A DNA stretch of 26,807 nt, taken from a virus. The stretch lies in IMG/VR virus record IMGVR_UViG_3300031569_000030, positions 1 through 26,807 of that record. One strand, given 5' to 3'. Positions 1 to 26,807 of this stretch are shown here, piece by piece (the stretch's first letter is position 1; the number at the start of each line of letters is the position of its first letter). The notes beneath the pieces are model-generated. The model saw only the letters and a list, made by a program, of their open reading frames with translations, was not told where the DNA came from and made no database searches. A program made the translations under genes and the position numbers.

Positions 1-3000
1 CCAGCTATTTCAAAAGTAGTTTTTATATTACCAGCTTCATCTGTTTTCCAACTTAATTTTTTCTTATCTCTTTCAGAGTCTATTTTTAAATCTTTAGAAG
101 CTTTAACTAGTTGAGTTTTAGATTTAACATCAAGACGAGACATACCTTCTTGAACTGCTTTAACATTTTGAGGTGCATCATCTGCAAAGTAAAAATCATT
201 GAAACCTTCAGCTGCTAGATCAACTATAAAATTAGCTTTAGCTAATGGAGAACTATTACCTAGTCCTACTATTTCTAAATTAGTAGTATCTATTCCTTCT
301 GATTCCAACCAAGCTCTTATAGCTGGTTCAGCTTCAGGAGCTCTAGCTGTTAGTATATAAACTTTTCTATCACCTTCAGCTTCTTTTACTTTCTTAAATA
401 AATCAAACAAAGGACCTCTTTTACCATCTCTAACTTTATTAAAGTCTGTAAAATCCATAACAGCACCTTTGTCAACTAAGTCAGATCCTTGCTTTGCAAA
501 CTCTTCAGCTGTTAGTTCACCTTTAGTGCCGTCAGGCATTGTATAAAACACTAAACTATTACTAATAGCTACTGTATCGTCAAAATCAAATAATCTAGCT
601 TTTTTAACTGGAGCATTTTCTCTTCTAGCTTTAGATATAGATTCATCTAAAGTCATCATTTTTCCAATTATTTCAGAAGCTGGAGTGTCTTTTGTTATAT
701 CAATAACACCTGAGTTGTCAATAGAAAATCTATTTTCTGGTTTTTCTATTTCTAAAAATTCTATAATTTCTTCTATAGCTTTTTTGTTTATTATTTTCTG
801 AACTGAAGCATCTTTAACAGATGTTGGAGATTCAGGATCATCAACTGAAACATAATCTTCAGTCTCTAAATTATTAGCAAGAACCCTAAGATCACTAGCA
901 GACGAAGTAGGATCTAATTGAGAGTCCATTTTATCAAATTCTGTTTTAGTACCTAATATTTGAGTATAATTATCTAGTATTTTATCTAACTTAGTATTTA
1001 GTTCATTTATTTGAATATCTTTACTTGATGGATTATCTATTATTTCCGATGCTGTATTTAATACTTGTTCTAATATTTCTTCCATTAATGGCGCAGCAGG
1101 ATCTAAATGCTCACCTTTAAATCTTAATTTGCTAGCTATAAGCGCTTCGTATCTATTAGCTATTTCTTGCTCTGTTAAATCTTTATTTTTTGGATTACTT
1201 AAAACTGATTGAATTTTTTCATCTGCATAATCTTCAGCTTCTTCAAAGTGAGGATGATCTCTATTTAATATATAACCTTTTTTAGGTGTGTTACTAGATT
1301 TTTTACCATCTTCACTTATATACGTGCCTTGTGGCTTGTCTGATATTTCTATAACACTTAAAGTAGTTAAACTTCTTAATGATTTAGTTAAATTTGTTTG
1401 ACCTTCTAATAGTCTCGCAGCACCAGCGGCAAGCTCAGGGTTGTTAGCTACAGCTAAAGTTATTTTTTCTATAATTAATTTAGTAGCTTTTATATTAGCA
1501 TCGTTAGCTTTTAAGATAGTATCCCATAAACCTTTTTCTTTTAGCTTTTTTATTTTAGCATCTTTACTTAAATCTTGATTTAGTATAGTTTCTATTTGAG
1601 CCATGACACCAGATCCAGCGTTGTATTGTCTAATATCTTTTACCCAAGATGGAGATTTAATTTTACTTTTCTTAGACTTTGCTTTAAATTTATCAAATTG
1701 CTTTTTAAAAGGACCGTAAGTATTAGTTTCTTTTTTATATCCCGAATCTAGGTATGTATAGTCATATCCAAAAGCAGCTGGACCAAGTAATTCTACTAAC
1801 TCAGGCGGTAATAGAGCAGCAAGCTCCATATTTAAATCATGCATTTCTAGCATAGATTTTTTATTACGCTTATCCGTAGAGTAAATAAGTTTTTTATTTT
1901 CTTTTTCTTTACTTAATACTCTTTCTATTATATTTCTAAACTTACTAGGTATTTTGCCCTCATCTAAAGCTTTCTTTAGTGTGTCTTTATATTTACCAGT
2001 GTTTGTGAAATAAGGTTCTAATAGTTTTATTGCAACAGATTTCTCTTCATCACTTAGCGCTTCTAAATTTATTCTCAATGCTTCAGGATCTCCACCTTCT
2101 TTTATAGTCTTATCAACTACATCTGTAATGTTTTTAATTAATAAATCTACATCATCTATAGAAAATCTTAAAGTTGGATCTCTATCAATTATATTTGTTA
2201 TTTCAGCTATAATTGCAGCTGGGCTTCCTTCTTCCTTTAGAACGTCAGCAGTGGCTTCCTCGGCTAACGATGTAGCTATAGCTTGAGCTAATTGAGTTTG
2301 TTTTGTAGCTGTAGTTCCTTTTTCAGGTTTTAAATGAAAATTAATAAATTTATCTTTATCAAACTTTAATTTAACCATTAATGATGGGCCAGAAGTTCTA
2401 GGAGTAAATGGAGGTAAATTTCTTTTTGATACTTCTTCATCTACTCTAGTTGGAGATAAATTTACTTCAATTTCATCTGTAAAATCTTGAAAAGACTTAT
2501 TCATTATAGACTGTGGAAGAAACTTGTATATAGCTTCAGAGTTTTCATCTAAAAACTTTTTATACTTATCACTACCTGGAGTACCCATCATTTCTTTAAC
2601 CTTTTTAGTTAAAGCTTTTCTAAATAATTCTTTAAGTCTAGTTCTATATTTTTTAGGATTTTTAACATCTAGTTTCTCATCATTAAGAGCTTTTTTAACC
2701 TCTTCTTTAATTTCATTATAAATATCACTGTCAACTTCTATGCCTAACGCTTTTCTTAAATTAGCTACTTCAACTGGTTCTTCAGCTTGCAGTGCGTCAT
2801 CAAAAGCATCACCAAGATCTTTTTCACCTGATTCTAACTGTGTGCCAAGCTCTTGTAGTTCGTCAAAACTTATATTATCGTATACGTTTTCTGTGTTAAT
2901 TAATTTATCAAATATACCAGGTATTCTTAACTGAAGTAATGGTTTGTTTTTCATTTTGCCAAAAACATAAGCACCAAATGGAACACCAGATTCTATGTCA

Positions 3001-6000
3001 TAAGTATTTATTAAGTCTGAAAAAGCAGCTAAAACCTCAGCTTTAAAATCATCATAAGTAACAGAAGTACCTTTTCTAGAGTCAAAGTTCTTTTTAATTA
3101 TATCAGTAATACCAGGCATGTTGTTTTCAACTAATCTATTTTTAGCTCTTTTGACTTGACTTTCACTTGAATTAGGATCTTTAATAATAGATATTTGCTT
3201 TTCGTTTTCTTTAGACAACTCAAGCAGTTTTCTTAGTTCTTTACTTTTTACAGTGTTTGTAGCAGCTCTTTCTCTCCAATTAGGTGGTTTATTTTCTAAT
3301 AACTTTTTATTTTTTTCTACTATCTTTTTTATTTCAGCTTCAAGATCTGTAGAACTATCTATAGAATACAATACAGGTTCTTCTTTCTCAATTTTTTCCT
3401 TTGGATTTAACTCTTTAAATATAGATTCTGAAGGTGGAGTTTTAGGTTTTTTAGGTTTTTTAGTATCTTGTTTTTTAACAAAAGTATCTTTTGATTTAGG
3501 ATCTATTGTATCTTTTTTAATTTTAGGAGTTGTATCATCACCTTTCTTTCTTCTGTTTTGTAAAAACTTTATAAAAGAATTTTTATTACCTAAGTCTAGT
3601 TCAAAACCAATTAAACTTTTAACCTTGTTTGATACAGCGTCTTTTAAATCAGATAAAACACTTTGATCTAGTTTAGCTTCACCACTTTGTAAAAAGTCTC
3701 CTAAGTTAGCTATCATTTCATCAGCTAAACCTTTATCTTTAAAACCAGCTTCTTTATATTTATCTATAAGATTATTATATTCTTCTGGAACTATCAAACT
3801 ACCATCTTCAATAGCTTCTACAATTTCATTTGCTAAAGCAAAAGTAACTTCGGGACCATATTCTTCTTCTAGATCTTGAACCATAAAGTGATCTCCTTCG
3901 TGAGGAACTACATCTTTACCTCTAATTTTACTATACTCTTTATCGTATATAACTACTGTTTTCCCTTTGTTTGGACCTTTAGTAGCTTTACCTATTACAG
4001 CAATAGTTCTATCACCATTTTCTGTTTCTAAAGCTTCTGCATCCTCATTGATTAAGCCAGCTTCTTTAGCTGCTTGTACAGCTTCTGAGCTTGTTTCAAA
4101 ATCTAAAATTACTTTATCTTTTCTAGTTTCTTTTTGTTTCTTTATATTTTCTTCAATAGTTTTAGATTCTTCACTTTCAACTTTTACTTTACTTATTTCA
4201 AGTAACTCTTTATCTATTTCTTTTATTCTTTCATTTATTTCATTAGTCTGTATAACACCTAAATCGTTATTCTTTTTCTTTTCTAATAAAACTCTTTTTT
4301 CATTTTCTAAGTTGTAAATTTGTTGTTGTTGCTGAGTGTCTTGTGATACATCTATTTTCTTCATGACCTCATGCATCGTAGTTATATCTTTTTTATAAGT
4401 ATCGTAAAGATCATTTATTTCTTGTATAACATTTTGATCACCATTAGCATTATCAATTTCTTTTTGCTTTTGAACTTCTAAGTTATTTATGTATTGATTA
4501 TAAAATTTATTGTCTCTTAATATAAATATTTTTTTAAAGTCTTTAGATTTTAAATTTAAATCATCATTTATTGATTTAGTAACTTTTATCCCGTTGTAAA
4601 CAGACTGAGCGCTAGATATTCCTCCAGCTGCAATAGCAGAAAGTATTGCTGTTTCTTCTAAAACTTCTCTCCATTCCTCCTTTGAAGTTGGCACTTGAAA
4701 ATAATCAAACTTTTCAAAATCTTTATTTACATAACCTTTTGCTATTAATTCTATAATAGTTTGAGCTTCTTCAGTTGGTATTTCAACTGCTGCAGCTTTA
4801 GTAGTAGTTATTATACCTTTATCTACTAACTCTAATATAACTCTTTTTATAGTTTGCTTTTGAGTTTCACCTGGTATTTTATTAACTGATTTACTAAATA
4901 TTCGTGTTATTATTTTAGTTGCACCTGGACCTTTAGCAATTTGCTCTAAACCTAGCTTATCTAATATGCTTATTATAGTACCTACACCTATTGTTAAACC
5001 TAGCCTTTGTGCTGGTTTAAGTTCAACACCGGTTTGTTCTATTCTTTTTTGTATTTCTATAGACTGATCTAATACTATTCTAGGCAATTGCACACCTGGT
5101 GTTAATATTCTAACTCCATGCTTTTTTACTCTTTCCCATAGCTTAGCACCTTTTTTTATTTTACTTGCTTTATTTACTATACCTAAACCTAATGATAAAT
5201 AAAGATCAACAGCAACTTCTAATAGAGTTCTAACAACCTTACCCCAAAGCTCTTGATTTATATTATTTTCTATTTGATCAAACTCAGTAGTGCCTCCAGG
5301 TTTTAATTTAAAGTCATCTATAGCTTCATCTACCATTATAACCCATTTTTTTTCAGCTTCATAAAGTAAATCAGCCATAGTGCTAGAAAATATAGTAGGA
5401 TCAATATTGTCAGCTAAACGAAGAACTCCTTCTGTTATTTCCAGAACTATTTCTATAGCTCCTGGTATTAACTTTTCAAGAGTCCCAGCAACTGTGTTGA
5501 TAACAAATGCTCCACTTTGAGCCAACGTAGGATCTTTTTCTTTTAAATATTCTTGATACTCTTCGTTCATTCTTAGAGCATCTTGACCAGCTTTATGTAT
5601 TTGTGCCTCTAAATCTTTTAATAATACGTTAGCGTAATCTTTTTTAGCATCTAATTCTATATTTCTTTTAATATTGTTTTGTAGATTTTTTCTATTTTCA
5701 CTAAGTATAGTGCTTAAGCTTTTGTTTAAATTACCTTGTTCTTCGTATATTAAAGCTTCACCACCATCACCATCTGCTTTAGGATCTTTAAAAACAAAGC
5801 TTAATCCAGATTCAGTTTCAACAACTGTTTCAGGATTTTTACTAAACTCCGCTACATCTTCTAGTGATCTACTATATGATGTGTCAAATGCTGATTTTTT
5901 TCTAAGTTCAGAAAGTGGCTTATCAAAAAAGTCTTCTTGCATTGAGTCTATTCTACTTAATAAAGAATTATATTCTTCAGCTTTCTCGTCGTGTATTCTA

Positions 6001-7829
6001 GCAACTCTTTTACTTTTGCTTTTTTCGTATTTTTTTCGGAGTTTAGATAGTTCTTTATTAGCAACCGCTAATTCTTCAACTATAGGATATATAGAGTTTT
6101 TATATCCGTCTTCTATAGAATTTATTTTATCTGTAATGTCTTTTATTTTCTGATCAACACTATCATTTGCTATGCTAGCTTGCAAAGATTTAACTTCAGC
6201 TATTGTATTGTTTATTTGCTTAGCTATATCATCGTACTTTTCTAATGGTGTATTATCAAAATCTTTATTATAATCTGTTTTTTCATTATCTAAAAAAGAC
6301 TTTATTTCATCACAGTCTGCAGATTTAATTTTTAATTGAACACCAAAACCGCCTTTACTAGGTGAATCATCTGATTTAACTAGTATATAAGGAGCATCTT
6401 CACCTTCAGGTGTTTGTATACTTCCTGTATATATTCCATCGTAATATGATTTCACAAGAGGACTACCACCACCAGTTATAGGTTCTCCAAATTCATTTTT
6501 ATCAACATTTCCATATAGCCTACCAGAATCTACATCGTAGTAAAAACCATATGCAGCAAATTGAGAATTGTTAAAATCTTTATTTAAGTTTTTAATTACT
6601 TCGCATGGTAAATTATTAACAGCAGAGTTAAATATTTCTTTATTAGAGGTATCTATAGTTTTTTTAGAACTAGGTTTTTCATCTCTAGTTCCTTGATTTT
6701 CTATTTCTAAAGGCCTTATAAAAAGCTCTGGATCTGGCTTAAACAAATCATCAATAAGCCTAGACTCTATATAAGTATCAAAGAAAAAATCTCTTTTAAT
6801 TTCGTTTTCTACATCTTTAATATTTGCTCTTATTTCAAAAACATCAGGAAGTTCTATAGTTTGAGCTTTAAGTGGTACTATTTCAACCGAACCATCTGAA
6901 AAACCAATTGCCGCCTCCGTATTATCTGGAGTGTAATTAGTTTCTTCAACTTCTTTTAGTTGTTTTGCTGGTCTAGGTGGTTCTCCATCTACTCCAGGTA
7001 TTATAGCTTTTAAATCCTCTTGAAGGACTGGCATAATCGATGTTGTTACTTCTGCTTCTTGAGATTTTATACCTATTAATTTACCAGTTTCTGTGGTATA
7101 AGACCCATCTTCTTTTTGTATAGTTTTAGTTGGAACTTGTATATTGTTTTCTAAAAACTCTCTATCTCTTTTATTGATGTCTTCAATAGCTACTATAGAA
7201 CTATCAATGTCTAGCTCTGTAATATTATCAATTTTATTTTCATCTAACTTAGTATACTTTTCTACCAATATCTCTGGAGTTAAAGGTATTACCTCAGTAC
7301 CAGGTTGATTTGCTACATTAATATCTTGTCTACTATAATATTCGTCTATTTCAAAAGACATATGATCATTTAAAACATTATCGTTAGTAGAAATAGGATT
7401 GTATTGTCTAGGAATTACGTTGTTAGGATTAGCAATTTTTCTAGCTTGTCTATTGACTTTTCTAATAGTTCTATCTTTTTGTTCCTTTAGCTTTTCTTTT
7501 CTTTCTTTATTTACTTCAGAAATTAATAGCTTTTTATCTTTCTTTCCAGCATCCTCCCAATATCGCATGCCGTTTTCATCATACTTGTTTCTGCCTTCAC
7601 GTCTTAGTTTAGACTTTATTTTAGTTTTAAGCGACTGATCTTCAAATCTAGCTCCAGTTACAGACGAAACACCGGGTGTTCCTGTAGGATCAAGAACTAT
7701 AGGATCTTTAACTTTTTTAGTTTTAACAGGTGTTTTAGTATATTTCTGCTTAGAAAAACCTCCTTTACGGACTTTTTTTCTTATTTTAGCTGTCTTTGGC
7801 GGTTTACTACTAAATGTTAATTTAGCCAT
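1..7829 (-). CDS. Giant multidomain (polyvalent) virion protein, C-terminus beyond window
   Basis: The frame stays open from an ATG at 7829 to the left edge: 2609 complete codons and no stop. Visible order: Lys/Arg-rich N-terminus (about 1-60); charged and coiled-coil region (about 530-630); hydrophobic Gly/Ala-rich segments (about 772-810, 864-889, 937-960, 1057-1082); a second coiled coil with a run of five Gln (about 1087-1210); a zincin-like domain with HEGDH at 1310-1314; a Lys/Pro linker (about 1430-1490); a sigma-region-2-like segment (about 1555-1640); a helical module of unknown type (about 1893-2367); and a HAD phosphatase domain (about 2405-2565). YSID/FSID motifs occur at 1488, 1889 and 2368. 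It follows two likely internal-virion genes with one base between, and has a strong Shine-Dalgarno sequence. Phage proteins of this size and make-up are usually packaged and ejected with the genome; that role is inferred here. Confidence is high for the ORF, moderate for the role. Confidence 0.85.
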   Translation of the reverse strand, partial: MAKLTFSSKPPKTAKIRKKVRKGGFSKQKYTKTPVKTKKVKDPIVLDPTGTPGVSSVTGARFEDQSLKTKIKSKLRREGRNKYDENGMRYWEDAGKKDKKLLISEVNKERKEKLKEQKDRTIRKVNRQARKIANPNNVIPRQYNPISTNDNVLNDHMSFEIDEYYSRQDINVANQPGTEVIPLTPEILVEKYTKLDENKIDNITELDIDSSIVAIEDINKRDREFLENNIQVPTKTIQKEDGSYTTETGKLIGIKSQEAEVTTSIMPVLQEDLKAIIPGVDGEPPRPAKQLKEVEETNYTPDNTEAAIGFSDGSVEIVPLKAQTIELPDVFEIRANIKDVENEIKRDFFFDTYIESRLIDDLFKPDPELFIRPLEIENQGTRDEKPSSKKTIDTSNKEIFNSAVNNLPCEVIKNLNKDFNNSQFAAYGFYYDVDSGRLYGNVDKNEFGEPITGGGSPLVKSYYDGIYTGSIQTPEGEDAPYILVKSDDSPSKGGFGVQLKIKSADCDEIKSFLDNEKTDYNKDFDNTPLEKYDDIAKQINNTIAEVKSLQASIANDSVDQKIKDITDKINSIEDGYKNSIYPIVEELAVANKELSKLRKKYEKSKSKRVARIHDEKAEEYNSLLSRIDSMQEDFFDKPLSELRKKSAFDTSYSRSLEDVAEFSKNPETVVETESGLSFVFKDPKADGDGGEALIYEEQGNLNKSLSTILSENRKNLQNNIKRNIELDAKKDYANVLLKDLEAQIHKAGQDALRMNEEYQEYLKEKDPTLAQSGAFVINTVAGTLEKLIPGAIEIVLEITEGVLRLADNIDPTIFSSTMADLLYEAEKKWVIMVDEAIDDFKLKPGGTTEFDQIENNINQELWGKVVRTLLEVAVDLYLSLGLGIVNKASKIKKGAKLWERVKKHGVRILTPGVQLPRIVLDQSIEIQKRIEQTGVELKPAQRLGLTIGVGTIISILDKLGLEQIAKGPGATKIITRIFSKSVNKIPGETQKQTIKRVILELVDKGIITTTKAAAVEIPTEEAQTIIELIAKGYVNKDFEKFDYFQVPTSKEEWREVLEETAILSAIAAGGISSAQSVYNGIKVTKSINDDLNLKSKDFKKIFILRDNKFYNQYINNLEVQKQKEIDNANGDQNVIQEINDLYDTYKKDITTMHEVMKKIDVSQDTQQQQQIYNLENEKRVLLEKKKNNDLGVIQTNEINERIKEIDKELLEISKVKVESEESKTIEENIKKQKETRKDKVILDFETSSEAVQAAKEAGLINEDAEALETENGDRTIAVIGKATKGPNKGKTVVIYDKEYSKIRGKDVVPHEGDHFMVQDLEEEYGPEVTFALANEIVEAIEDGSLIVPEEYNNLIDKYKEAGFKDKGLADEMIANLGDFLQSGEAKLDQSVLSDLKDAVSNKVKSLIGFELDLGNKNSFIKFLQNRRKKGDDTTPKIKKDTIDPKSKDTFVKKQDTKKPKKPKTPPSESIFKELNPKEKIEKEEPVLYSIDSSTDLEAEIKKIVEKNKKLLENKPPNWRERAATNTVKSKELRKLLELSKENEKQISIIKDPNSSESQVKRAKNRLVENNMPGITDIIKKNFDSRKGTSVTYDDFKAEVLAAFSDLINTYDIESGVPFGAYVFGKMKNKPLLQLRIPGIFDKLINTENVYDNISFDELQELGTQLESGEKDLGDAFDDALQAEEPVEVANLRKALGIEVDSDIYNEIKEEVKKALNDEKLDVKNPKKYRTRLKELFRKALTKKVKEMMGTPGSDKYKKFLDENSEAIYKFLPQSIMNKSFQDFTDEIEVNLSPTRVDEEVSKRNLPPFTPRTSGPSLMVKLKFDKDKFINFHLKPEKGTTATKQTQLAQAIATSLAEEATADVLKEEGSPAAIIAEITNIIDRDPTLRFSIDDVDLLIKNITDVVDKTIKEGGDPEALRINLEALSDEEKSVAIKLLEPYFTNTGKYKDTLKKALDEGKIPSKFRNIIERVLSKEKENKKLIYSTDKRNKKSMLEMHDLNMELAALLPPELVELLGPAAFGYDYTYLDSGYKKETNTYGPFKKQFDKFKAKSKKSKIKSPSWVKDIRQYNAGSGVMAQIETILNQDLSKDAKIKKLKEKGLWDTILKANDANIKATKLIIEKITLAVANNPELAAGAARLLEGQTNLTKSLRSLTTLSVIEISDKPQGTYISEDGKKSSNTPKKGYILNRDHPHFEEAEDYADEKIQSVLSNPKNKDLTEQEIANRYEALIASKLRFKGEHLDPAAPLMEEILEQVLNTASEIIDNPSSKDIQINELNTKLDKILDNYTQILGTKTEFDKMDSQLDPTSSASDLRVLANNLETEDYVSVDDPESPTSVKDASVQKIINKKAIEEIIEFLEIEKPENRFSIDNSGVIDITKDTPASEIIGKMMTLDESISKARRENAPVKKARLFDFDDTVAISNSLVFYTMPDGTKGELTAEEFAKQGSDLVDKGAVMDFTDFNKVRDGKRGPLFDLFKKVKEAEGDRKVYILTARAPEAEPAIRAWLESEGIDTTNLEIVGLGNSSPLAKANFIVDLAAEGFNDFYFADDAPQNVKAVQEGMSRLDVKSKTQLVKASKDLKIDSERDKKKLSWKTDEAGNIKTTFEIA
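135..617 (-). other. HAD-superfamily phosphatase domain inside the giant protein
   Basis: About residues 2405-2565. Motif I is DFDDT at 2415-2419, with nucleophile D2415 and acid D2417. Motif II is the Thr of LTARAP (T2494). Motif IV is the FADDAP pair D2550/D2551. Lys candidates for motif III lie between motifs II and IV. Order and spacing fit a Mg-dependent HAD phosphatase, and a domain of the T4 polynucleotide 3'-phosphatase type is plausible. The substrate cannot be read from the sequence. Nucleic-acid end repair or nucleotide dephosphorylation during host takeover is a guess. Confidence 0.8.
2910..3167 (-). other. Sigma-70 region 2-like segment inside the giant protein
   Basis: About residues 1555-1640. 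The pattern runs AKNRLVENN (from 1562), then a TYDDFKAEV stretch, then INTYDIESGVPFGAY ending at Y1621, then a Lys/Arg-bearing helix with M1626. This parallels sigma-70 regions 1.2-2.4, where AK..-VE.N, then D.IQEG, then KFE..RG..F.TYA..WIR occur in the same order and spacing. Family memory says similar segments occur in other giant phage proteins. No region 4-like helix-turn-helix was recognised nearby, so it is probably not a complete sigma factor. Confidence 0.55.
3675..4127 (-). other. Zincin-like metallopeptidase domain inside the giant protein
   Basis: About residues 1235-1385. HEGDH at 1310-1314 fits the HExxH zinc-binding and catalytic motif and is preceded by a short beta-like stretch (KTVVIYD) and VVP. 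A possible third zinc ligand is E1371 in ADEMIANLGDFL, 57 residues after H1314. Zincin domains of this kind are known in phage polyvalent proteins. Proteolytic self-processing or host-protein cleavage is inferred, not shown. Confidence 0.6.
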
Positions 7830-7830
7830 A

Positions 7831-9282
7831 TTATTCTCCTATTTTATTTACTGGATTGTACAAAGAGTAAGATTGACCGGATTTACCAATTTCTGATGAA
7901 GAAGTCGCATTCATTAAATTGTTCATTTGTCTATTATTTAAGTCATCAGACTCCATCGTTTTGTTAAAGTTTTGAGAAGCTAATTGATTTCTATCACTTT
8001 CGGTCATTTGCTTTAGTTTTTCTTCAAGTGGAATATCATCTTTTTTTCTATCAAGTTTATTTGCTTTACGTTTGCCATCGGCAGTTGTCATATCTAAAAC
8101 CTCAGCTTCAACTTCTGGCTTCGTCTCTATAATAGGTCTAGCAAACTCTCTAGCATAAGCTTCATTTAACCCTAGTTGTACAATTTTTCTATCAAAAATA
8201 ACTTCTGGAGAGTTTTGTCTATTAACAGCTACTTGAGCACCAACATAATTTCCAATAATTTCAGATCCGTTTTTCTTATAATCATTAACTGGATCTTTCA
8301 TACCGTAAGGATTATTATCCCATAAGTTTTTAATTTGACTTTGTATTGGATCTAAAGAATTACCATCTTTATCTTTTACTTCATTGTAGACAGCTAAAGT
8401 TTGATCTAAGACTTGTGGATATATACTTGTAGAATAATCTTGGTTATTTAATACAGCTTCTTGGTCATAATTAGCAATTTCATCTAACACGTTATTGCCA
8501 TCTTCAAATGTTATTATACCTTGTTCATTAGGCTTTATACCTTTAGTTTCAAATACTTTTTCTACTATAGTTTGTTTATTTTCACCACCAGCTGCCATGT
8601 TTTTAGTAACATCAGCCATATCTCCATTAGTTTGTATTAGACTAACACCGTTTGGCGACATTAAATTAGCATTAAACTTGTTCATATCAAACTTAGGTTG
8701 TCCTTTTAATCCAAACTCTAACGAAGTACCGTCTTCATTTAATGATGCTTCAAAGTTTTTAAACTCTGGATCCATTACTAGGCTTTTACCCATTTTAAAT
8801 ATATCATTATCAATTAAATGAGCATTAATAGATTTAGGACCTCCTCTTGGAACATCTAATGAAGCTGTAAGTTCGTTTTTCATGTTGTTTAAACCTGTCA
8901 TAGTTCCTTTTAAACCATCCGCAAGCTTTAACATTGAATTAGCGGCAAATTTATTTCCTTCAGCAACATGTTTTAAGTACTTATCTTTAGCATCCATACC
9001 TAGCTGTTGCAAAAAAGCATTAGGAGCAGAAGGCTTTTTTAAGTCTGCAATTTGCGATTGATTTTGCTGTGCTCTAAATAAATCTAATTCATCTAGTATT
9101 TGATTATTTTGAGCTTGAAGTGTCTTAAAGTTTAAACCATCTTTACCATCTTCTCCATCTTCAGCTGTAGCTTGTGGTCCATATAAAGAACCTAAGTCAT
9201 CATTAAACTTTGATATTTCAGCATTAGCTTGTTTTAAGCCAGCTGATTGATCTATTATTGCCGGTTGTCTGTAAGTTCCCAT
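7831..9282 (-). CDS. Putative internal virion protein, 483 residues
   Basis: I do not recognise a named family. The protein is hydrophilic and largely helical, rich in Asn, Gln, Lys and Asp. A short DGEDGKDG turn lies near residues 42-49 and a Gln/Asn-rich helical stretch follows. The middle contains IYPQVLDQTLAVYNEVKDKDG, and the C-terminal third is strongly charged. There is no signal peptide or membrane segment. It lies between a small internal-virion-like protein and the giant multidomain protein, 10 bases after the former and one base before the latter. Order and composition suggest an ejected or internal core protein of a short-tailed phage, comparable in position to T7 gp15. That assignment rests on context. 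The ATG start has no Shine-Dalgarno sequence. Confidence 0.6.
   Translation of the reverse strand: MGTYRQPAIIDQSAGLKQANAEISKFNDDLGSLYGPQATAEDGEDGKDGLNFKTLQAQNNQILDELDLFRAQQNQSQIADLKKPSAPNAFLQQLGMDAKDKYLKHVAEGNKFAANSMLKLADGLKGTMTGLNNMKNELTASLDVPRGGPKSINAHLIDNDIFKMGKSLVMDPEFKNFEASLNEDGTSLEFGLKGQPKFDMNKFNANLMSPNGVSLIQTNGDMADVTKNMAAGGENKQTIVEKVFETKGIKPNEQGIITFEDGNNVLDEIANYDQEAVLNNQDYSTSIYPQVLDQTLAVYNEVKDKDGNSLDPIQSQIKNLWDNNPYGMKDPVNDYKKNGSEIIGNYVGAQVAVNRQNSPEVIFDRKIVQLGLNEAYAREFARPIIETKPEVEAEVLDMTTADGKRKANKLDRKKDDIPLEEKLKQMTESDRNQLASQNFNKTMESDDLNNRQMNNLMNATSSSEIGKSGQSYSLYNPVNKIGE
7836..7840 (-). promoter_or_regulatory. Strong Shine-Dalgarno sequence for the giant gene
   Basis: On the minus strand AGGAG is followed by six bases and the ATG at 7829. 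It lies inside the last codons of the upstream gene. Most other starts in the window have no such sequence, so this one fixes the start and suggests deliberate translation strength. Confidence 0.8.
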
Positions 9283-9292
9283 ATTCTATTAT

Positions 9293-9856
9293 TTACCCAG
9301 TTACTGATTCAAATCCACCAGCTAAAGTTGTAGCAGATCCTGCTATATTACCGAAAGCAGCATATTTAGCTTGTCTCATATCCATCTCTGTTTGTCTTTC
9401 TTGGTCAAGCATGGCTTGTGTTCTATCTAGTTTCATTAAATCTCTTGACTCTTGTCTTGAAAATCTAGTATCTTCACCTTGAGCATATAGTTTTTGGTTA
9501 GATGCTTCTTGTCTTTGCAAGTCTGCAGATATACCTTGTTTACTAGTTAAAGCTGCTTGAGCTAGTGCTGTAGCACCACCTGAACCACCACCAGTAGCTC
9601 TAATAGTATCTAAAGTGTTAGCTAGTGATATATCAGCTTGCTCGGCTTGAAACTCAGAGGCTTTAGCTGCAACACCTAAATTAGCATAAGGATTACCTAT
9701 TTTTTGTAAAGCTTTTTCTTGATCTGCTATAGAGTCTTTAAGTATTTGTTGTTCTCCTCTAGCTTTCTTTTCTTTGTTATTAGCATCTATAGCTACACCT
9801 GTACTTACACCTGCTGCTATAACTGTACCTACTACTAATGCTGTTGCTACTGCCAT
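9293..9856 (-). CDS. Small internal virion protein with N-terminal hydrophobic helix
   Basis: 187 residues. Residues 3-24 form a hydrophobic Ala/Val/Gly helix that could insert in a membrane. A charged helix follows, then NPYANLG (55-61) and a segment with SLANTLDTIRATGGGSGGATALAQAAL-type composition (about 76-102) containing a Gly-rich turn. The rest is a long Gln/Arg-rich coiled coil, and the end is again Ala/Gly-rich. This layout recalls small ejected virion proteins of podophages (T7 gp14-like in position). I recall close relatives in marine flavobacterial phages as unnamed structural proteins. A role in forming the DNA ejection conduit is inferred. It lies four bases after the acetyltransferase-like gene. 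Confidence 0.6.
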   Translation of the reverse strand: MAVATALVVGTVIAAGVSTGVAIDANNKEKKARGEQQILKDSIADQEKALQKIGNPYANLGVAAKASEFQAEQADISLANTLDTIRATGGGSGGATALAQAALTSKQGISADLQRQEASNQKLYAQGEDTRFSRQESRDLMKLDRTQAMLDQERQTEMDMRQAKYAAFGNIAGSATTLAGGFESVTG

Positions 9857-9860
9857 ATTA

Positions 9861-10262
9861 TTAATTTAAAATTTTAACTAATTCATGAGATGGTCTTTTA
9901 TCTGCATGCCATCCTAATTTTTTATGTGTTTCTATTAGACTTTTATGTCTACATATACTAAAAGAATACTTGTACCCAAGATCTTTTATAATTTCTTCAG
10001 CTCCAGTTATTAATAACTCTAAAGCTTGTTTTCTATTATCTTCTCTATATTCTGGATCTGATACTATCCACTCTAATAAAGCTACTTTAGCATTTGTTAA
10101 GTATATAAAGCCAGCTGCTACAGGTTTATTATTGTTTTCAACAACTACACCTGTTTCAGGTAGAAAATCATCGGCAGGAGATACCCACTCAGGCCAAGCT
10201 TCCCACCATTTTTTAATAAAAGTTAAATCACCTTGTTTTAACTTTCTAATATTTAATTCCAT
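9861..10262 (-). CDS. GNAT-family acetyltransferase-like protein
   Basis: 133 residues with the GNAT order: N-terminal beta strand and helices (LNIRKLKQGDLTFI), a central strand pair around 41-58 (VVVENNNKPVAAGFIY), the strand EWIVSDPEYR (64-73), the acetyl-CoA loop and helix (about 73-90), and a C-terminal helix KSLIETHKKLGW (107-118) typical of the family. The acetyl-CoA pyrophosphate loop, normally R/Q-x-x-G-x-G/A, reads REDNRKQA and lacks both glycines, so catalysis may be weak or lost. It sits in the middle of virion genes, which suggests it acts on, or is packed with, virion proteins. No substrate can be named. Confidence 0.75.
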   Translation of the reverse strand: MELNIRKLKQGDLTFIKKWWEAWPEWVSPADDFLPETGVVVENNNKPVAAGFIYLTNAKVALLEWIVSDPEYREDNRKQALELLITGAEEIIKDLGYKYSFSICRHKSLIETHKKLGWHADKRPSHELVKILN

Positions 10263-10268
10263 TTAATT

Positions 10269-12101
10269 CTATTGCGACGATACGTTTATGTTAGTTGATG
10301 CTGCAAATATTTGTTTAGATCCACCTAAATCAGTAGTACCATCTGTTTGTAATGTAACTGTTGCAAAATATCCTTTAATTCCAGATATTGAACTACCGTA
10401 AGAAACTTCTCCAACCCTAGCCGTACTATTATTTCTAATATTAGACATGTATTTACCTTCTTTTAACGTAAATCCAGCTCTTTGTATTGGTGGAGTTAAT
10501 GATGCTGGAAACTCATTTCCAAAGTTATCATAAGCACCTTCGTAGTAACTATTTATAATTACACTATTATCTGTATAATTTACATATTCTGATATGCTAG
10601 CTGATGGATTTATATAATTATCGTTAACTAATTGTTTCCCTTGTTGGTCTGATATAAAGCTTTGGCCTTTCCAACCATTACTTCCTTCATAACCTATAGT
10701 TAAAAAGTTTTTACTTATATTAACTTGTGGATTAAAAACAAAAGTTATTGAAGAAGCGGCAGGAGCTGCACCATAATATACATTTCTATTATTAGACGCA
10801 CCAGTAAAATAATGTTCGTATATTTCAGAAGAGTTAGTAGTAAAATAAGTATTTTTTAAACTAAATATATTATTAGGCTTGTAACTGTAAAAAGTTGGCC
10901 AACCTAAAATGTTTTCGTCCCAAGCTAAAGTGTAGTAATTGTTAGTATCGTTTGAAAAAGTAGAAGTACCAGCTTTTTGTATTGAAACAACGTATTCTCT
11001 ATCGTGTATATCCCAACCACCTTGTATTTTATCTTTATCAAAAGTTCTAAATGACAACGGTGAATCATTGGGTATTGTTATATTTAGTATTTGCGAAAGA
11101 GCTACGTAAGCTCCTTGAAAACCTATAACGTATATATTATATTCTATTCCATTTATTATTAATTGTGATCCTATTTGTATGTTAGGACTTCCAGTTACTA
11201 GTATATATGGAGGTATACCACCTCCACCTGAATCTTGGACATTACCAAAAGTAGCTGATACATCTACAGCTTCTAAATTTTCATTAATATCTTTTAATTT
11301 ATCTCTAAAGAAGTTAGATAATCCATTTTCAGATATTTCTGTTATACCATCGCCTGATAATCTTAATATTGATCCTCTATCTTTATCTGCAAAGTATTTT
11401 CTAAATCCGTATATAGCAAAAGATTCTGGATTTTTACTTATACCAAATTCTCCAGCATATGGACTTAATTGACCTATAACTGTTCCAGGAGGCAGAGTTT
11501 GTGTACCACCTTCTGAAGTGTATATAGTATCTTTATCTATTAAAGCTCTATTAATTTTATCTTCTTGAAATACAATTAAGTTAGTGTCTTCGGCGTAAAG
11601 TTTTTGTATACTACCTTTTTGTGGATCAGCTGCTTTTGTTATGTTTTCTCCTACTGAAAAAACATTAGTTTCATTTATGCCAGTTCTAGAGTTATAAATA
11701 CCTGAATATATTAAAGCATTTGGTCTTACTTCTTGCGTATTAAAATCTTCTTTTAAATAAGCTTTTGCACCATAATCTATTGATGTAGCATTAAAATCTT
11801 CTTGATACCTAGAACCTTCTATGAACCAATTTTCTACTTCATCATATCCAGAAGTTGAAAAAACAGGTGAACTAGGCTCACTACCACATCCAGATGGAAA
11901 TACTGGAAAATTAGTTGGATTCCAAGGTAAACCTGGAAATACAGATGCTATGCCACCTCTCCACTCTTGTGGTGTAGCAAAATTATTATAATCATAAGGA
12001 ACGCCTCTAGATGTAGCTAAACCACCTGGTGTTCCAGTATATATAGTCTTTTTTAACCAAAAAGAATTAAAATAATTAACTTCTAATTTGTAATATGCCA
12101 T
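10269..12101 (-). CDS. Tail nozzle/muzzle protein, second part
   Basis: 610 residues, mainly beta, aromatic- and Asn-rich. Segments I recall from the C-terminal half of large tail stabilisation (muzzle/nozzle) proteins of marine flavobacterial phages are RPNALIYSGIYNS (126-138), KLYAEDTNLIVFQEDK (about 167-182), GISKNPESFA (220-229), a DRGSILRLSGDGITEIS stretch (241-257) and GWPTFYSYKP (400-409). These look like propeller blades. In relatives they usually follow a nozzle N-terminus in the same protein. Here that N-terminus is in the gene just upstream, with two bases between, so the two products probably assemble together. The last 100 residues, rich in Ser, Asn and Gly, may be peripheral or adhesive. 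Function is inferred from resemblance and order. Confidence 0.65.
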   Translation of the reverse strand: MAYYKLEVNYFNSFWLKKTIYTGTPGGLATSRGVPYDYNNFATPQEWRGGIASVFPGLPWNPTNFPVFPSGCGSEPSSPVFSTSGYDEVENWFIEGSRYQEDFNATSIDYGAKAYLKEDFNTQEVRPNALIYSGIYNSRTGINETNVFSVGENITKAADPQKGSIQKLYAEDTNLIVFQEDKINRALIDKDTIYTSEGGTQTLPPGTVIGQLSPYAGEFGISKNPESFAIYGFRKYFADKDRGSILRLSGDGITEISENGLSNFFRDKLKDINENLEAVDVSATFGNVQDSGGGGIPPYILVTGSPNIQIGSQLIINGIEYNIYVIGFQGAYVALSQILNITIPNDSPLSFRTFDKDKIQGGWDIHDREYVVSIQKAGTSTFSNDTNNYYTLAWDENILGWPTFYSYKPNNIFSLKNTYFTTNSSEIYEHYFTGASNNRNVYYGAAPAASSITFVFNPQVNISKNFLTIGYEGSNGWKGQSFISDQQGKQLVNDNYINPSASISEYVNYTDNSVIINSYYEGAYDNFGNEFPASLTPPIQRAGFTLKEGKYMSNIRNNSTARVGEVSYGSSISGIKGYFATVTLQTDGTTDLGGSKQIFAASTNINVSSQ

Positions 12102-12103
12102 GT

Positions 12104-15100
12104 TTAATTAATTTCTATCCATGTTGAATAATATTTAAAAGCAAAGCCAGTTGATCCGTTACAGTCTTTTACTATTACTTTTAATAAAACCTTTTGACCA
12201 ACATTTTGTAGTAAATAAGCTTGATCATTTACTATTCTTATATATGTTTGAGGGATTACGCTATTAAAATAGAAAAATGTTTTATCAAGAGCTGTACCGT
12301 CTTTTTCTACTTTAACTTCTAGGTTGTCTAAAGATGTTCCAGCAGATCCATTAAAAACAGTAGTCTGAGTATTAAATTCACCAATTAATGCATTTGGACC
12401 TCTTTGACTAGTTGGAGGAACTGCAAATATAGGATACGGATATGTTTCACTACCAGCAGAACCTGATGAAGGATTTCCAATTTCACCTTCGTACCAATCA
12501 AAACCATTAATATTAGCTTGAGCGGCTAACGATGGGGTTATAGATGGAGCTTCATTAGTTAATAAACATGTTTTAGTTATTATGTTATTGCCATTAGCTA
12601 ATATTCTTAAGTTTATATTAAAAGTTCTTGTGCTTATATCAGCTCCGTAATAAAAATACGTATTAGATCTTAATCTATATCTTAATCCAGTTGTATTTAT
12701 AAGATCAAAAGGAGCTGGATTCAACACAGTGCCATTACCATCTGTAACGCCAGCTAATTCTATCGTTCCAATTGTCATTAAAGAATTATTACCATCTACA
12801 GCTTGAAATTCACCACCAATCCAAGATGTTCCACTTGGTACTTGTGTTTCTTCTAAAGAAAAAGCTACTGGTTGTGGTGGCGAGGTTGGTGTTCCTATGT
12901 TTACGCCTATACCTCCAGAAGCTCCATTGTTTACATATTGGTTTAGTTCAGCTATAGTACCAGCTGTGCTACTTTCCCAGTATATATCTAATTCTGATTC
13001 TACTGGATTTGTTTCAAATACATTTAAGTTTTTAGAGAAAGATCTTAATTGATTAGTATTAACATCTTGCTGTACGCCAGGAGCAAATCCAACTAAAAAA
13101 CTTGTTTCCAACTGAGCTACAAAAGGATTTGCACTAGCATCTAAATATAATGGATCAACATAAGTAGTTGAAAAATGAGGATAAACAGTTTTGTTTTTAG
13201 GAACATTTCTATTTGTTACCCAGCTTCCTAAATCTTTAAAAGATAATATAGAATTTATTGTAAATTCATTTTTAAAAGTAACTTGAGATGACTCGGAAAA
13301 AGCTGGAGTAGGATTCCATACATTAGGATAATTCGTAGCATTAGCAATATACTTAGTTACAACTCTTGGATATAATAATGTTTCACTACCGTAAACTGTT
13401 TCAGTTGGACCAACGTCTCCTAGCTCTTTAGGTACTTTGTTTATATTGTCACCATATAATACTATATTAGAAATTGAAGCAGCATTGTTGTACGTTAAAT
13501 CCCCTACACCTGCGTGAGATTCTGTTCCAATTTCTCCTTTAAATATTATTTTACCAGAAGTAGCTCCAGGAGTGAAAACGTTGTAATATTCTTGTTCTTT
13601 TTGTTGTACTACTACTTTGTAACTTAAATATCCTAAAGGGTTAGTTGCGCTAAAAACACCTGGATAACCATCTATTTTATTAGTTGGTATTAAATCGTTA
13701 AATTGTATTTTTAAACTATTACCAGGCCAATTTAAAACACTTTCTACATTTTCATAAGGAGCATACAAACTACCAAATTCACCCACAACACCTAAGTTTA
13801 TAGATTCATCTCTAAGTATAACATTAGAAGATCTACCGTATCTATCAACTAAAACAATACCAACTTTATAAGATCTATTTTGCTTTACAGTATGATTAAT
13901 ATATTCTCTTCTAACTCTACTTTTTTCTGGATTTACTAAGTTGGGATCACCATCAGCAAATTTTTCACTAATACCTAGATTGTAGTTTAAGTTTTCAGGT
14001 GAAGCATGTTTTTCAATAAAATTACCATAAATTATTCTATTACCAGCAGTAGCTTGAGCAGCTGCTTTTATAGGTACTTTATCATGTATTCTTAAAGATA
14101 CGTTATCAGGCAACACTTTATAAGGCTTGTTTGAAATGTAGTTGTAAGCATAATATCTTAAAGAAGAAGATGTAAAATTATCTTCTACACTAATTTCGTC
14201 AACTACTCTAATAGCATTGCTAGTTGATTCTTTTAAAAGTATTTGTACTTGGTTTATTTTAAACTCATTAGCAACTTCACTTTGCACAGCTCTAGCGCTG
14301 CCTGAAAGCACGTTGAAATTAAACTTTGGTGGTAAATCTATTATTAAATTAGCTCTTGTAATTTGATTTTCCATTAATTTTAAAACTCCACTTTCTGCAG
14401 TGTTTTTTTCATCTCTTCTAGTTGCAGCACCAGCGTAAGCACTATCTAAAAAATATCCATATTGTTTTGGCACGAATAATGGTTGACTAAAAGGAGCCAT
14501 TAAAGAATATTCGTTATCGTCATATTTAAATCTATAACTAAACCTAACAAATTTATCTTTTAGATAATTTTCATCTCCTTGGAAGTTTGATTCGTAATAA
14601 GGATTTAACTCTTCTAATTGTAATATATTATTCGCTGAAAAAGCTGTTGATCCAGAGCCATAATATTGAACAGCTGCAGCGTTGGCAGCGGCCATCGATT
14701 GCGTGGCATTGTAACCAGAGCCTATAGGATATTCAAACTCTATGTTACCAAATGTAACACCGTTAGCTGCGTTTCCAGATATTTGAGTTATTTTAAAATA
14801 GCCTAACTCTGGTTTATCTATATTTAAAAATCTTGTAGTAGTGTTTGTAATGTCTATATCTAATGTTCCGTATTGCAATACTACATCGGTAGATGTTATA
14901 GAATTAACTACACAAGCTGAGTTAGCTGGTAGATACTCATTTAAAGTATCTTTAGCGGTAGGTAAGTCAGTAGCTGGATCTATAAAAGATATAGGATCAT
15001 AAGGAGCGTATTTAGCTACGGATATATGGTCTTCGTTGGTATAGTAAGTTGGATTTGCTATAGCAGTTTCTATATTTATTTTTCTAGGTTGGTTTCTATT

Positions 15101-15583
15101 ATCTGTAAAAAATAATAAATCTTCTATTAAATCAACCCCTAACATTGGGTGTGTTTTAGAGAAGTTTAAAAAAGCACCTTGAACTATAACACCACTAGCT
15201 GCATTACCACCGGTTAATGGTCCTTCAATATAAGCTATATAGCAATTAGCTCCAGCTATAGTTCCACCAGCTGGATGAGGAACACTATCTAAAGGAAAAT
15301 TGCTAAGGTTGTCAGGTGATGAATCATTGAAATTAGTAGCAAATATATAAATTCTATCTTTGTTAGTATCTACATGATAACCTATTATCTCAGTGTTAGC
15401 TGCAAAACCAAAATTTGAGTACTGAGAATTTCCTAGTATGTTTTCAACAACACCCTCGTCAGGACCTTCACTTTTACTTACAGATATATTTTGACCATCT
15501 CTATACTCTCCTTGAGGTAGTAGTCTTTCATCTAGGTCTTTATTCATTTTAGACCCGGTAAATAAATTCCTTACTTCTGGCAT
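12104..15583 (-). CDS. Tail nozzle/stabilisation protein with C-terminal beta domains
   Basis: 1159 residues. The N-terminus carries GSKMNKDLDERLLPQGEY (10-27) followed by RDGQNISVSKSEG and VVENILGN. This is the hallmark of podophage tail nozzle proteins (T7 gp12, P22 gp10 and crAss-like muzzle types). The middle is beta-rich, with a KVGIVLVDRYGRSSNVIL stretch that is common in these proteins. From about residue 900 onward there are beta-sandwich-like repeats, with EVKVEKDGTALDK and KVIVKDCNGSTG near the end, suggesting Ig- or cadherin-like decoration. It should form part of the tail below the ring proteins. It starts one base after the connector gene and ends two bases before the second nozzle gene. 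No Shine-Dalgarno sequence is seen. Confidence 0.75.
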   Translation of the reverse strand: MPEVRNLFTGSKMNKDLDERLLPQGEYRDGQNISVSKSEGPDEGVVENILGNSQYSNFGFAANTEIIGYHVDTNKDRIYIFATNFNDSSPDNLSNFPLDSVPHPAGGTIAGANCYIAYIEGPLTGGNAASGVIVQGAFLNFSKTHPMLGVDLIEDLLFFTDNRNQPRKINIETAIANPTYYTNEDHISVAKYAPYDPISFIDPATDLPTAKDTLNEYLPANSACVVNSITSTDVVLQYGTLDIDITNTTTRFLNIDKPELGYFKITQISGNAANGVTFGNIEFEYPIGSGYNATQSMAAANAAAVQYYGSGSTAFSANNILQLEELNPYYESNFQGDENYLKDKFVRFSYRFKYDDNEYSLMAPFSQPLFVPKQYGYFLDSAYAGAATRRDEKNTAESGVLKLMENQITRANLIIDLPPKFNFNVLSGSARAVQSEVANEFKINQVQILLKESTSNAIRVVDEISVEDNFTSSSLRYYAYNYISNKPYKVLPDNVSLRIHDKVPIKAAAQATAGNRIIYGNFIEKHASPENLNYNLGISEKFADGDPNLVNPEKSRVRREYINHTVKQNRSYKVGIVLVDRYGRSSNVILRDESINLGVVGEFGSLYAPYENVESVLNWPGNSLKIQFNDLIPTNKIDGYPGVFSATNPLGYLSYKVVVQQKEQEYYNVFTPGATSGKIIFKGEIGTESHAGVGDLTYNNAASISNIVLYGDNINKVPKELGDVGPTETVYGSETLLYPRVVTKYIANATNYPNVWNPTPAFSESSQVTFKNEFTINSILSFKDLGSWVTNRNVPKNKTVYPHFSTTYVDPLYLDASANPFVAQLETSFLVGFAPGVQQDVNTNQLRSFSKNLNVFETNPVESELDIYWESSTAGTIAELNQYVNNGASGGIGVNIGTPTSPPQPVAFSLEETQVPSGTSWIGGEFQAVDGNNSLMTIGTIELAGVTDGNGTVLNPAPFDLINTTGLRYRLRSNTYFYYGADISTRTFNINLRILANGNNIITKTCLLTNEAPSITPSLAAQANINGFDWYEGEIGNPSSGSAGSETYPYPIFAVPPTSQRGPNALIGEFNTQTTVFNGSAGTSLDNLEVKVEKDGTALDKTFFYFNSVIPQTYIRIVNDQAYLLQNVGQKVLLKVIVKDCNGSTGFAFKYYSTWIEIN

Positions 15584-26086: not shown

Positions 26087-26358
26087 TTACTTCTCCCTTC
26101 TGCAAAACCTTTAAAAGTTTTTTCTACTTTAACTTCCTTAGGTTTTTCATTTAGCATATCTTCTTCTATTTGAATACGATTAAGTATTTCAAAAGCATCA
26201 AATATAGCTAGTTTCTTAGTTGCAGCAGCATTCTTTAATCTATCAGCGCTTACATCGTCGTCTGAGTCAACAATCTTTTCTTTTGCTACCTTAATTAATT
26301 CCTCAACTGCTTTTTGCCCAGCTTGGATTATACTCTTTTTGGTTTTCTTTATGTCCAT
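26083..26358 (-). CDS. Small protein before the terminase; small terminase subunit candidate
   Basis: 91 residues, helical and charged. The N-terminal half is Lys-rich, then comes DSDDDVSADRLKNAAATKK (31-49) leading to a helix LAIFDAFEILNRIQIEED (about 50-67), and the end is basic (FKGFAEGRSK). I recall similar short proteins with the LKNAAAxKKLAIxDAFEIL pattern directly before the terminase in Bacteroidota phages, without a proven function. Its position, size and 4-base overlap with the large terminase gene make it a candidate small subunit. I see no clear helix-turn-helix, so this is a context call. It overlaps the upstream gene by 56 bases. Confidence 0.6.
   Translation of the reverse strand: MDIKKTKKSIIQAGQKAVEELIKVAKEKIVDSDDDVSADRLKNAAATKKLAIFDAFEILNRIQIEEDMLNEKPKEVKVEKTFKGFAEGRSK
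26093..26097 (-). promoter_or_regulatory. Shine-Dalgarno sequence deciding the GTG start of the terminase
   Basis: GGGAG on the minus strand, six bases before the GTG at 26086. It lies in the last codons of the 91-residue gene and supports coupled translation. Confidence 0.75.
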
Positions 26359-26807
26359 ATTTAATTAATATGTCTTTTGATTTCATACAATATAATAACT
26401 CTTCATCTACCACAAACTCCCACTCTCTAGCATTTGGAAAACCAACAATGTCTTCTTCTACTATGTTTAATTTTTTTAACAACTTGTTTCCGTATTTTAA
26501 AACACCTTTATTAGGTATTGTTTTATCTCCCAGTTTTTCAGAAGTTAATGGTTTTACAAAACATCTATCTAAAAAAGAATTAAAAACACCATCTCTTTCA
26601 TATAAATATATTTGATCAACAGAACAAAAATACAAGTTGTTTTTAAAATAAGCTCTACTGTTTTTTTCTCTACCTTTCATATCGTAGAACCTTCTAAAAA
26701 CATTGTGATGTACATACACTATGTCTCCTGGTGTTATATCTAAGTTGTAAGCTTTTGGAACACTTACAACTTTTGCTTTTTTATTAACAGATTTAAAAGT
26801 TTCTATT
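26303..26807 (-). CDS. GroES-like co-chaperonin, N-terminus beyond window
   Basis: The frame is open to the right edge with no ATG, so the gene starts outside; 167 residues are visible. LDITPGDIVYVHHNVF near the visible start and VEEDIVGFPNAREWEFVVDEELLYCMKSKDILIKYG near the end resemble the strands and closing DDIL-type end of GroES. The GVLKYGN segment between them fits too. Phages such as T4 encode a co-chaperonin (gp31) that works with host GroEL to fold the coat protein, and the location beside the head genes agrees. The identification rests on pattern and memory of similar annotated marine-phage proteins. A GTG at 26719 is internal, not the start. Confidence 0.55.
   Translation of the reverse strand, partial: IETFKSVNKKAKVVSVPKAYNLDITPGDIVYVHHNVFRRFYDMKGREKNSRAYFKNNLYFCSVDQIYLYERDGVFNSFLDRCFVKPLTSEKLGDKTIPNKGVLKYGNKLLKKLNIVEEDIVGFPNAREWEFVVDEELLYCMKSKDILIKYGHKENQKEYNPSWAKSS

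Follow-up and report, generated by a model that had tools for sequence, protein, structure and literature searches.

The last minus-strand open reading frame (ORF) of the window, i.e. of the whole analysed stretch of 26,807 bases, probably encodes the first 2609 residues of a polyvalent ejection cargo protein of about 3400 residues, carried by a marine podovirus with Bacteroidota-infecting relatives. This giant ORF (7829 to 3, minus strand) comprises 2609 codons from an ATG, lacks a stop and is open at its 3' end. A single base lies between the stop of the 483-aa ORF upstream and the ATG of the giant ORF, and an AGGAGA stretch precedes this ATG. The entire gene is held by IMGVR_UViG_3300001720_000017 (L002), where it codes for 3382 residues and ends in a stop. 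The two giants are 84% identical over the shared part (87% aligned identity; dS 0.31), with dN/dS of 0.24 overall and 0.17 to 0.39 by part, below 0.4 in each tested part. Because a complete version exists at this identity and dN/dS is this low, the giant ORF is not a product of chance, and the very large open frame described in the earlier note is confirmed. Judged by these comparisons, it is a functional gene, truncated where the contig ends and, if it resembles L002, about 770 residues short.

Using the C-terminal 783 residues of the L002 protein as query, 31 loci were retrieved, one of which (L013) is L002's own contig. The 31 giants considered below are the other 30 loci together with L002. 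Of the 30, 26 have both ends intact and measure 2112-3408 aa; in the remaining four, the contig truncates three giants at the 3' end (L030, L036, L042) and L039 at the 5' end. The ORF set excludes L013 and L005, both from the same contig as L002, and L001, which is the window. L033 and L037 agree with L031 and L019 in length and score; they contribute to the count of 31 and not to the alignments. Alignments A5, A7 and A9 were built without L042, and A8 without L028, in which the HAD domain is interrupted. In BLASTP comparisons, L012 aligns with L002 over nearly its whole length. The other 29 giants align only over the HAD phosphatase domain and the C-terminal part, sometimes over the stretch just before, and in four cases over the middle module. 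The N-terminal variable region of the window giant (4188 to 7829, minus strand; residues ~1-1214) is alignable in L002 and L012 only, among the giants fetched.

A C-terminal profile of 655 positions matches all 31 viral giants, as it must since they were found through that region, and also gp074 of Tenacibaculum phage Gundel_1. A profile built without the Gundel sequence still finds gp074 (E 6e-11, hhalign probability 93%). By profiles, the HAD domain is present in the window and in 26 of the 31 giants and absent in five. The HExxH motif occurs in the window and in 29 giants and is degenerate in the other two: L038 has another residue in place of the first histidine, and L024 has one extra residue of spacing. 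As far as sequences tell, the C-terminal domain, the HAD and the HExxH zincin form the core of the family, and much of the rest is swapped. From these features, the giants appear to be a new family of phage polyvalent proteins.

In a model of the L002 protein, the C-terminal domain is helical, its first half being predicted with fair confidence and the second half with poor confidence. The last 21 residues of the window giant (3 to 65, minus strand) depart from L002 and share KTDEAGN with an extra module of L021 and L023, a match that is not significant (E 24); it is possible that they are the start of a module inserted before the C-terminal domain. No match to the phages collection was obtained in tblastn searches with the giant P0001 and the L002 C-terminal part. 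The C-terminal domain was also seen (L043-L052) on contigs binned with Flavobacteriaceae, Cryomorphaceae, Saprospiraceae and Sphingobacteriales MAGs, as well as with Aliivibrio, Ilumatobacteraceae and Woesearchaeota MAGs, where binning errors may be involved.

The HAD phosphatase domain proposed earlier occupies residues 2383-2588 (66 to 683, minus strand) and stands up to closer analysis. It matches phrog_415, a polynucleotide kinase family (E 4.7e-8), and its catalytic motifs are intact. HAD motifs I-IV consist of DxDxT, T, K and DD; the corresponding D33, D35, T37, T112, K149, D168 and D169 are invariant in 25 of 25 sequences. In the window and L002 pair, dN/dS of this domain is 0.22. The fold was recovered on the L002 homologue, whose model has mean pLDDT of 63 overall and mostly 70-85 in the HAD part. 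With VIA-align, this model superposes best, by a small margin, on bacterial Pnkp1 (4xrp; Z 10.1, rmsd 3.3, 126 aligned) and T4 Pnk (1ltq; Z 9.5, rmsd 3.1, 122 aligned). Since other HAD phosphatases, Lem4 and Nir2, score within 1 Z unit of these matches, the comparison does not tell the substrate. Foldseek with the model of HAD and C-terminal domain gave no PDB match at E <= 0.001, and PDB sequence searches with the giant P0002 and alignments A6, A7 and A8 gave nothing usable. T4 polynucleotide kinase/phosphatase and Pnkp1 are similar to the window protein in HAD fold and PHROG name; unlike them, it has no kinase half.

The invariance of the catalytic residues together with dN/dS of 0.22 argues for an active enzyme. 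This bears on an alternative in which the giant is a scaffold or structural protein, inner-core or tape-like, that is retained in the particle, with zincin and HAD as relics or of use in assembly only. Such a role would fit the position of the gene at the end of the structural operon and the annotation of its relatives, which are labelled only as structural, and the zincin could serve maturation, as the text of PMC5512222 proposes for P1 DdrB. We nevertheless regard it as unlikely in view of the apparently active HAD and of the N-terminal region, which is unalignable among most members, unlike a fixed structural part.

One giant, L028, carries a P-loop kinase inside its HAD domain (Zeta_toxin 7e-13, AAA_33 8.5e-13, phrog_505 polynucleotide kinase 3e-10). 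The insertion spans giant residues ~2184-2363, between HAD motif I and the LTAR motif. It also accounts for the only AAA_33 match in the 15 records of relatives. A further P-loop lies at L042:11078-11248, at the contig end where the C-terminal domain should continue, and is perhaps another kinase insertion. HADs of polynucleotide kinase type are described in phage RNA repair in a survey of jumbo phages (PMC7824862), a role that is also an option for the HAD here. RNA_ligase (PF09414) was detected in a single one of the 15 records, that behind L034 (E 1.3e-9), so a ligase partner is not general; T4 Rnl1 (PF09511) was found in none of the 15, which may be incomplete records.

The zincin-like domain noticed at first reading is likewise supported. 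It covers residues 1215-1414 (3588 to 4187, minus strand) and contains the zinc-binding motif HEGDH at residues 1310-1314 (3888 to 3902) and a third-ligand glutamate, E1371, present in 13 of 13 aligned rows. The model of this block (pLDDT mostly 60-80) shows three strands followed by two ligand-bearing helices, the order of elements found in zincins; the zincin-region model as a whole is of low confidence (mean pLDDT 53, pTM 0.31). Foldseek and VIA searches with the model of the zincin and sigma region returned weak helical matches only (best Z 6.1), with no zincin chain listed. A profile that holds the zincin finds gp18 of Flavobacterium elemovirus over the HEIFH motif of that protein (E 2.4e-8).

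Further modules were delimited between zincin and HAD. A conserved helical module (2052 to 3188, minus strand; residues ~1548-1926) occurs in 14 giants including that of the window and is best modelled over residues 1692-1882. It is followed by an EHxxP-motif module (675 to 1952, minus strand; residues ~1960-2385), with EH at residue 2240. The hydrophobic segments reported earlier are present but weak; the best 19-residue stretch, residues 943-961, has mean hydropathy of 1.58.

A segment at residues ~1589-1665 (2835 to 3065, minus strand) had been read as sigma-like, a resemblance that is marginal and could not be established. Pfam searches with seven segments of family members gave no sigma match and no other. 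Sigma70_r2 has no match in the window giant, and its one match inside a giant, that of L002, stays below threshold (11.3 bits, cut-off 24). Compared with the segment, a sigma profile built from 24 loci reached hhalign probabilities of only 0.8 and 1.7%, and the segment is modelled with low confidence. Since the segments of the window and L002 are colinear with sigma region 2 over 70 columns (27% identity), the sigma reading is unproven rather than excluded.

The order of genes around the giant recalls that in other phages. In Escherichia phage N4, a small, a medium and a giant protein follow each other in the same way (gp52, 150 aa; gp51, 644 aa; gp50, the virion RNA polymerase, 3500 aa). In Bacteroides phage crAss001, the muzzle gp44 is followed by proteins of 842, 534 and 2341 aa (gp45, gp46, gp47). 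Both N4 gp50, in its second half, and crAss001 gp47 contain HExxH. According to PMC10172136, crAss001 gp45, gp46, gp47, gp49 and gp50 were found in virions by mass spectrometry, and gp73, gp72 and gp71 of phage DEV form a proposed ejection apparatus in the account of PMC10925440. Considering size and gene order as in N4 gp50 and the place held by crAss001 gp47, the giant might itself be a virion RNA polymerase of this kind, the polymerase residing in an unrecognised module. However, no RNA polymerase was detected here, and the giant P0002 has no PDB sequence match up to E 1. Profiles of the C-terminal domain and zincin are at noise level against N4 gp50 and crAss gp45-gp50, and no sequence similarity to the crAss001 giant was detected. 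PF00940 gave no match in 15 records, its control being silent everywhere. Moreover, in six relatives a Sigma70_r2 match is found in a separate protein about 250 aa long (above the cut-off in five of the six), which suggests use of the host polymerase. We consider a virion polymerase highly improbable. The six separate proteins come from the records behind L017, L031, L032, L034, L038 and L040, and each may be the phage's own sigma factor.

The remainder of the window forms a head and tail module. It encodes a terminase, a portal and other products with matches to PHROG families for head and packaging, so that the giant is encoded beside virion and late genes. The portal is 27-49% identical to portals of 87 phage records, mostly of Flavobacterium, Cellulophaga, Tenacibaculum and Maribacter phages. 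Next comes a muzzle-like tail protein of 610 aa (10269 to 12101, minus strand) with a crAss_MUZ_C match, and ORFs of 133, 187 and 483 aa lie between it and the giant. The ORFs at 10269-12101 and 12104-15583 match different parts of phrog_14478 (1474 positions), which is one protein of 1324-1612 aa in named relatives; the muzzle-like protein appears split here and in L002. The conserved 133-aa protein (phrog_17252; 9861 to 10262, minus strand) has an equivalent place beside the muzzle in named relatives. It is annotated as N-terminal acetyltransferase subunit in MW202828 and might be GNAT-like. At the upstream edge of the structural module, a GroES co-chaperonin-like ORF is found at 26303-26806.

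The two genes preceding the giant had been considered internal-virion-like, which homology supports for the first of them. The 187-aa protein (9293 to 9856, minus strand), with its hydrophobic N terminus, is the presumed small member of an ejection trio. By iterated hmmsearch, its family includes phi38:1 gp099, Gundel_1 gp072, elemovirus gp20, phi46:3 gp117 and members from Calle_1 and Panino, and these proteins of named phages stand in the equivalent position and are annotated as structural or virion structural. The 483-aa protein directly upstream of the giant (7831 to 9282, minus strand) is presumed to be the middle member by its position. Sequence comparison did not extend its family to named phages; in all 27 giants examined, the ORF directly ahead of the giant measures 365-662 aa. 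One could also suppose a multi-enzyme protein that is produced during infection and stays out of the virion. We hold this to be highly improbable given the operon position, the neighbour homologous to annotated virion structural proteins and the similarity to polyvalent proteins at the structure level.

This last similarity comes from BFVD, where the model of HAD and C-terminal domain gave 47 matches at E <= 0.001. The first are four proteins of uncultured viruses (34-39% identity), several others are named PolyVal ART, large polyvalent protein associated domain or MuF, and the structural-protein giant of Gundel_1 is also included (E 3.6e-6); all TM-scores are low, the highest by query being 0.47 and most 0.3-0.37. 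The proposal of a polyvalent protein loaded into the capsid and delivered to the host is partly supported, by architecture, gene order, homology to annotated structural proteins and BFVD fold; its sigma-like component is unproven. As to architecture, the chain is large (2609 aa or more here, 3382 in L002) and combines zincin, HAD, C-terminal domain and further modules. Polyvalent proteins as treated in PMC5512222 are alike in exceeding 2000 residues, in their disparate domains, zincin-like metallopeptidase and late-gene neighbourhood; the C-terminal fold resembles BFVD entries with polyvalent names. The window family differs from them in its near-constant HAD and in that Pfam detects no known polyvalent domain in the giants P0001 and P0002. 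MPTase-PolyVal (PF18818) had no match in any of 11 records, its control matching only below the cut-off and in 3 of 14 genomes; LPD38 (PF18857) had none in 11 records, with a control silent everywhere. Neither "phosphatase" nor "haloacid" appears in the main text of Iyer et al. 2017 (PMC5512222), and among titles and abstract beginnings no paper turned up on a polyvalent protein with HAD or polynucleotide kinase in a virion. On this narrow basis, the HAD as near-constant part is what seems new relative to known polyvalent proteins.

Among named phages, two giants come closest. Gundel_1 gp074 (2482 aa) shares the C-terminal part, the zincin motif and the 187-aa neighbour with the window family; it differs in having no HAD and a weak GNAT-like match instead, and its C-terminal homology covers about half of the domain. 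Elemovirus gp18 (3694 aa) has the same place and a homologous zincin region. In contrast to the window giant, it has no detectable HAD or C-terminal domain and carries DUF3293. Both are annotated as "structural protein", which is an annotation label; "mass spectrometry" is absent from the main text of Bartlau et al. (PMC8776804).

If the giant is ejected cargo, its C-terminal domain, perhaps with the zincin, would bring the chain into the capsid. It would exit through the tail together with the 187-aa and 483-aa proteins, as a small-medium-giant trio, ahead of the DNA. The zincin would cut the chain or a host protein; processing by zincins is argued for polyvalent proteins in general in the text of PMC5512222. 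In the first minutes of infection, the HAD would be at work in the host cell, with nucleotides or nucleic-acid ends as its most plausible substrates, and the variable N-terminal and middle modules would contribute host-specific activities. The analysis adds a putative polyvalent cargo family, found on dozens of environmental phage contigs, in which the C-terminal domain and HAD, not an RNA polymerase, are the fixed parts. The constant C-terminal domain is a concrete candidate for the signal that directs packaging or ejection. If active and ejected, the HAD would provide a ready-made phosphatase at the start of infection, which bears on the blunting of defences based on nucleotide signalling or RNA cutting. 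A bolder proposal, which we advance only tentatively and consider doubtful, is that the virion-delivered HAD of PNKP-like fold acts on nucleotide signals or broken RNA or DNA ends in the first minutes, ahead of all phage gene expression, that L028 is a kinase-phosphatase in one chain and that the giant gene is a cassette of swappable cargo.

Finally, the giant gene was compared with its neighbours. The 483-aa proteins of the window and L002 are only 45% identical (dS 1.13), whereas the giants are 87% identical at dS 0.31. With L012 the situation is reversed: the 483-aa proteins share 86% identity (dS 0.39) and the giants 35%. In view of these contrasts, the history of the giant gene differs from that of its neighbours, as after recombination. 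Within the giant itself, identity between L002 and L012 rises from 28% at the N terminus to 77% at the C terminus.
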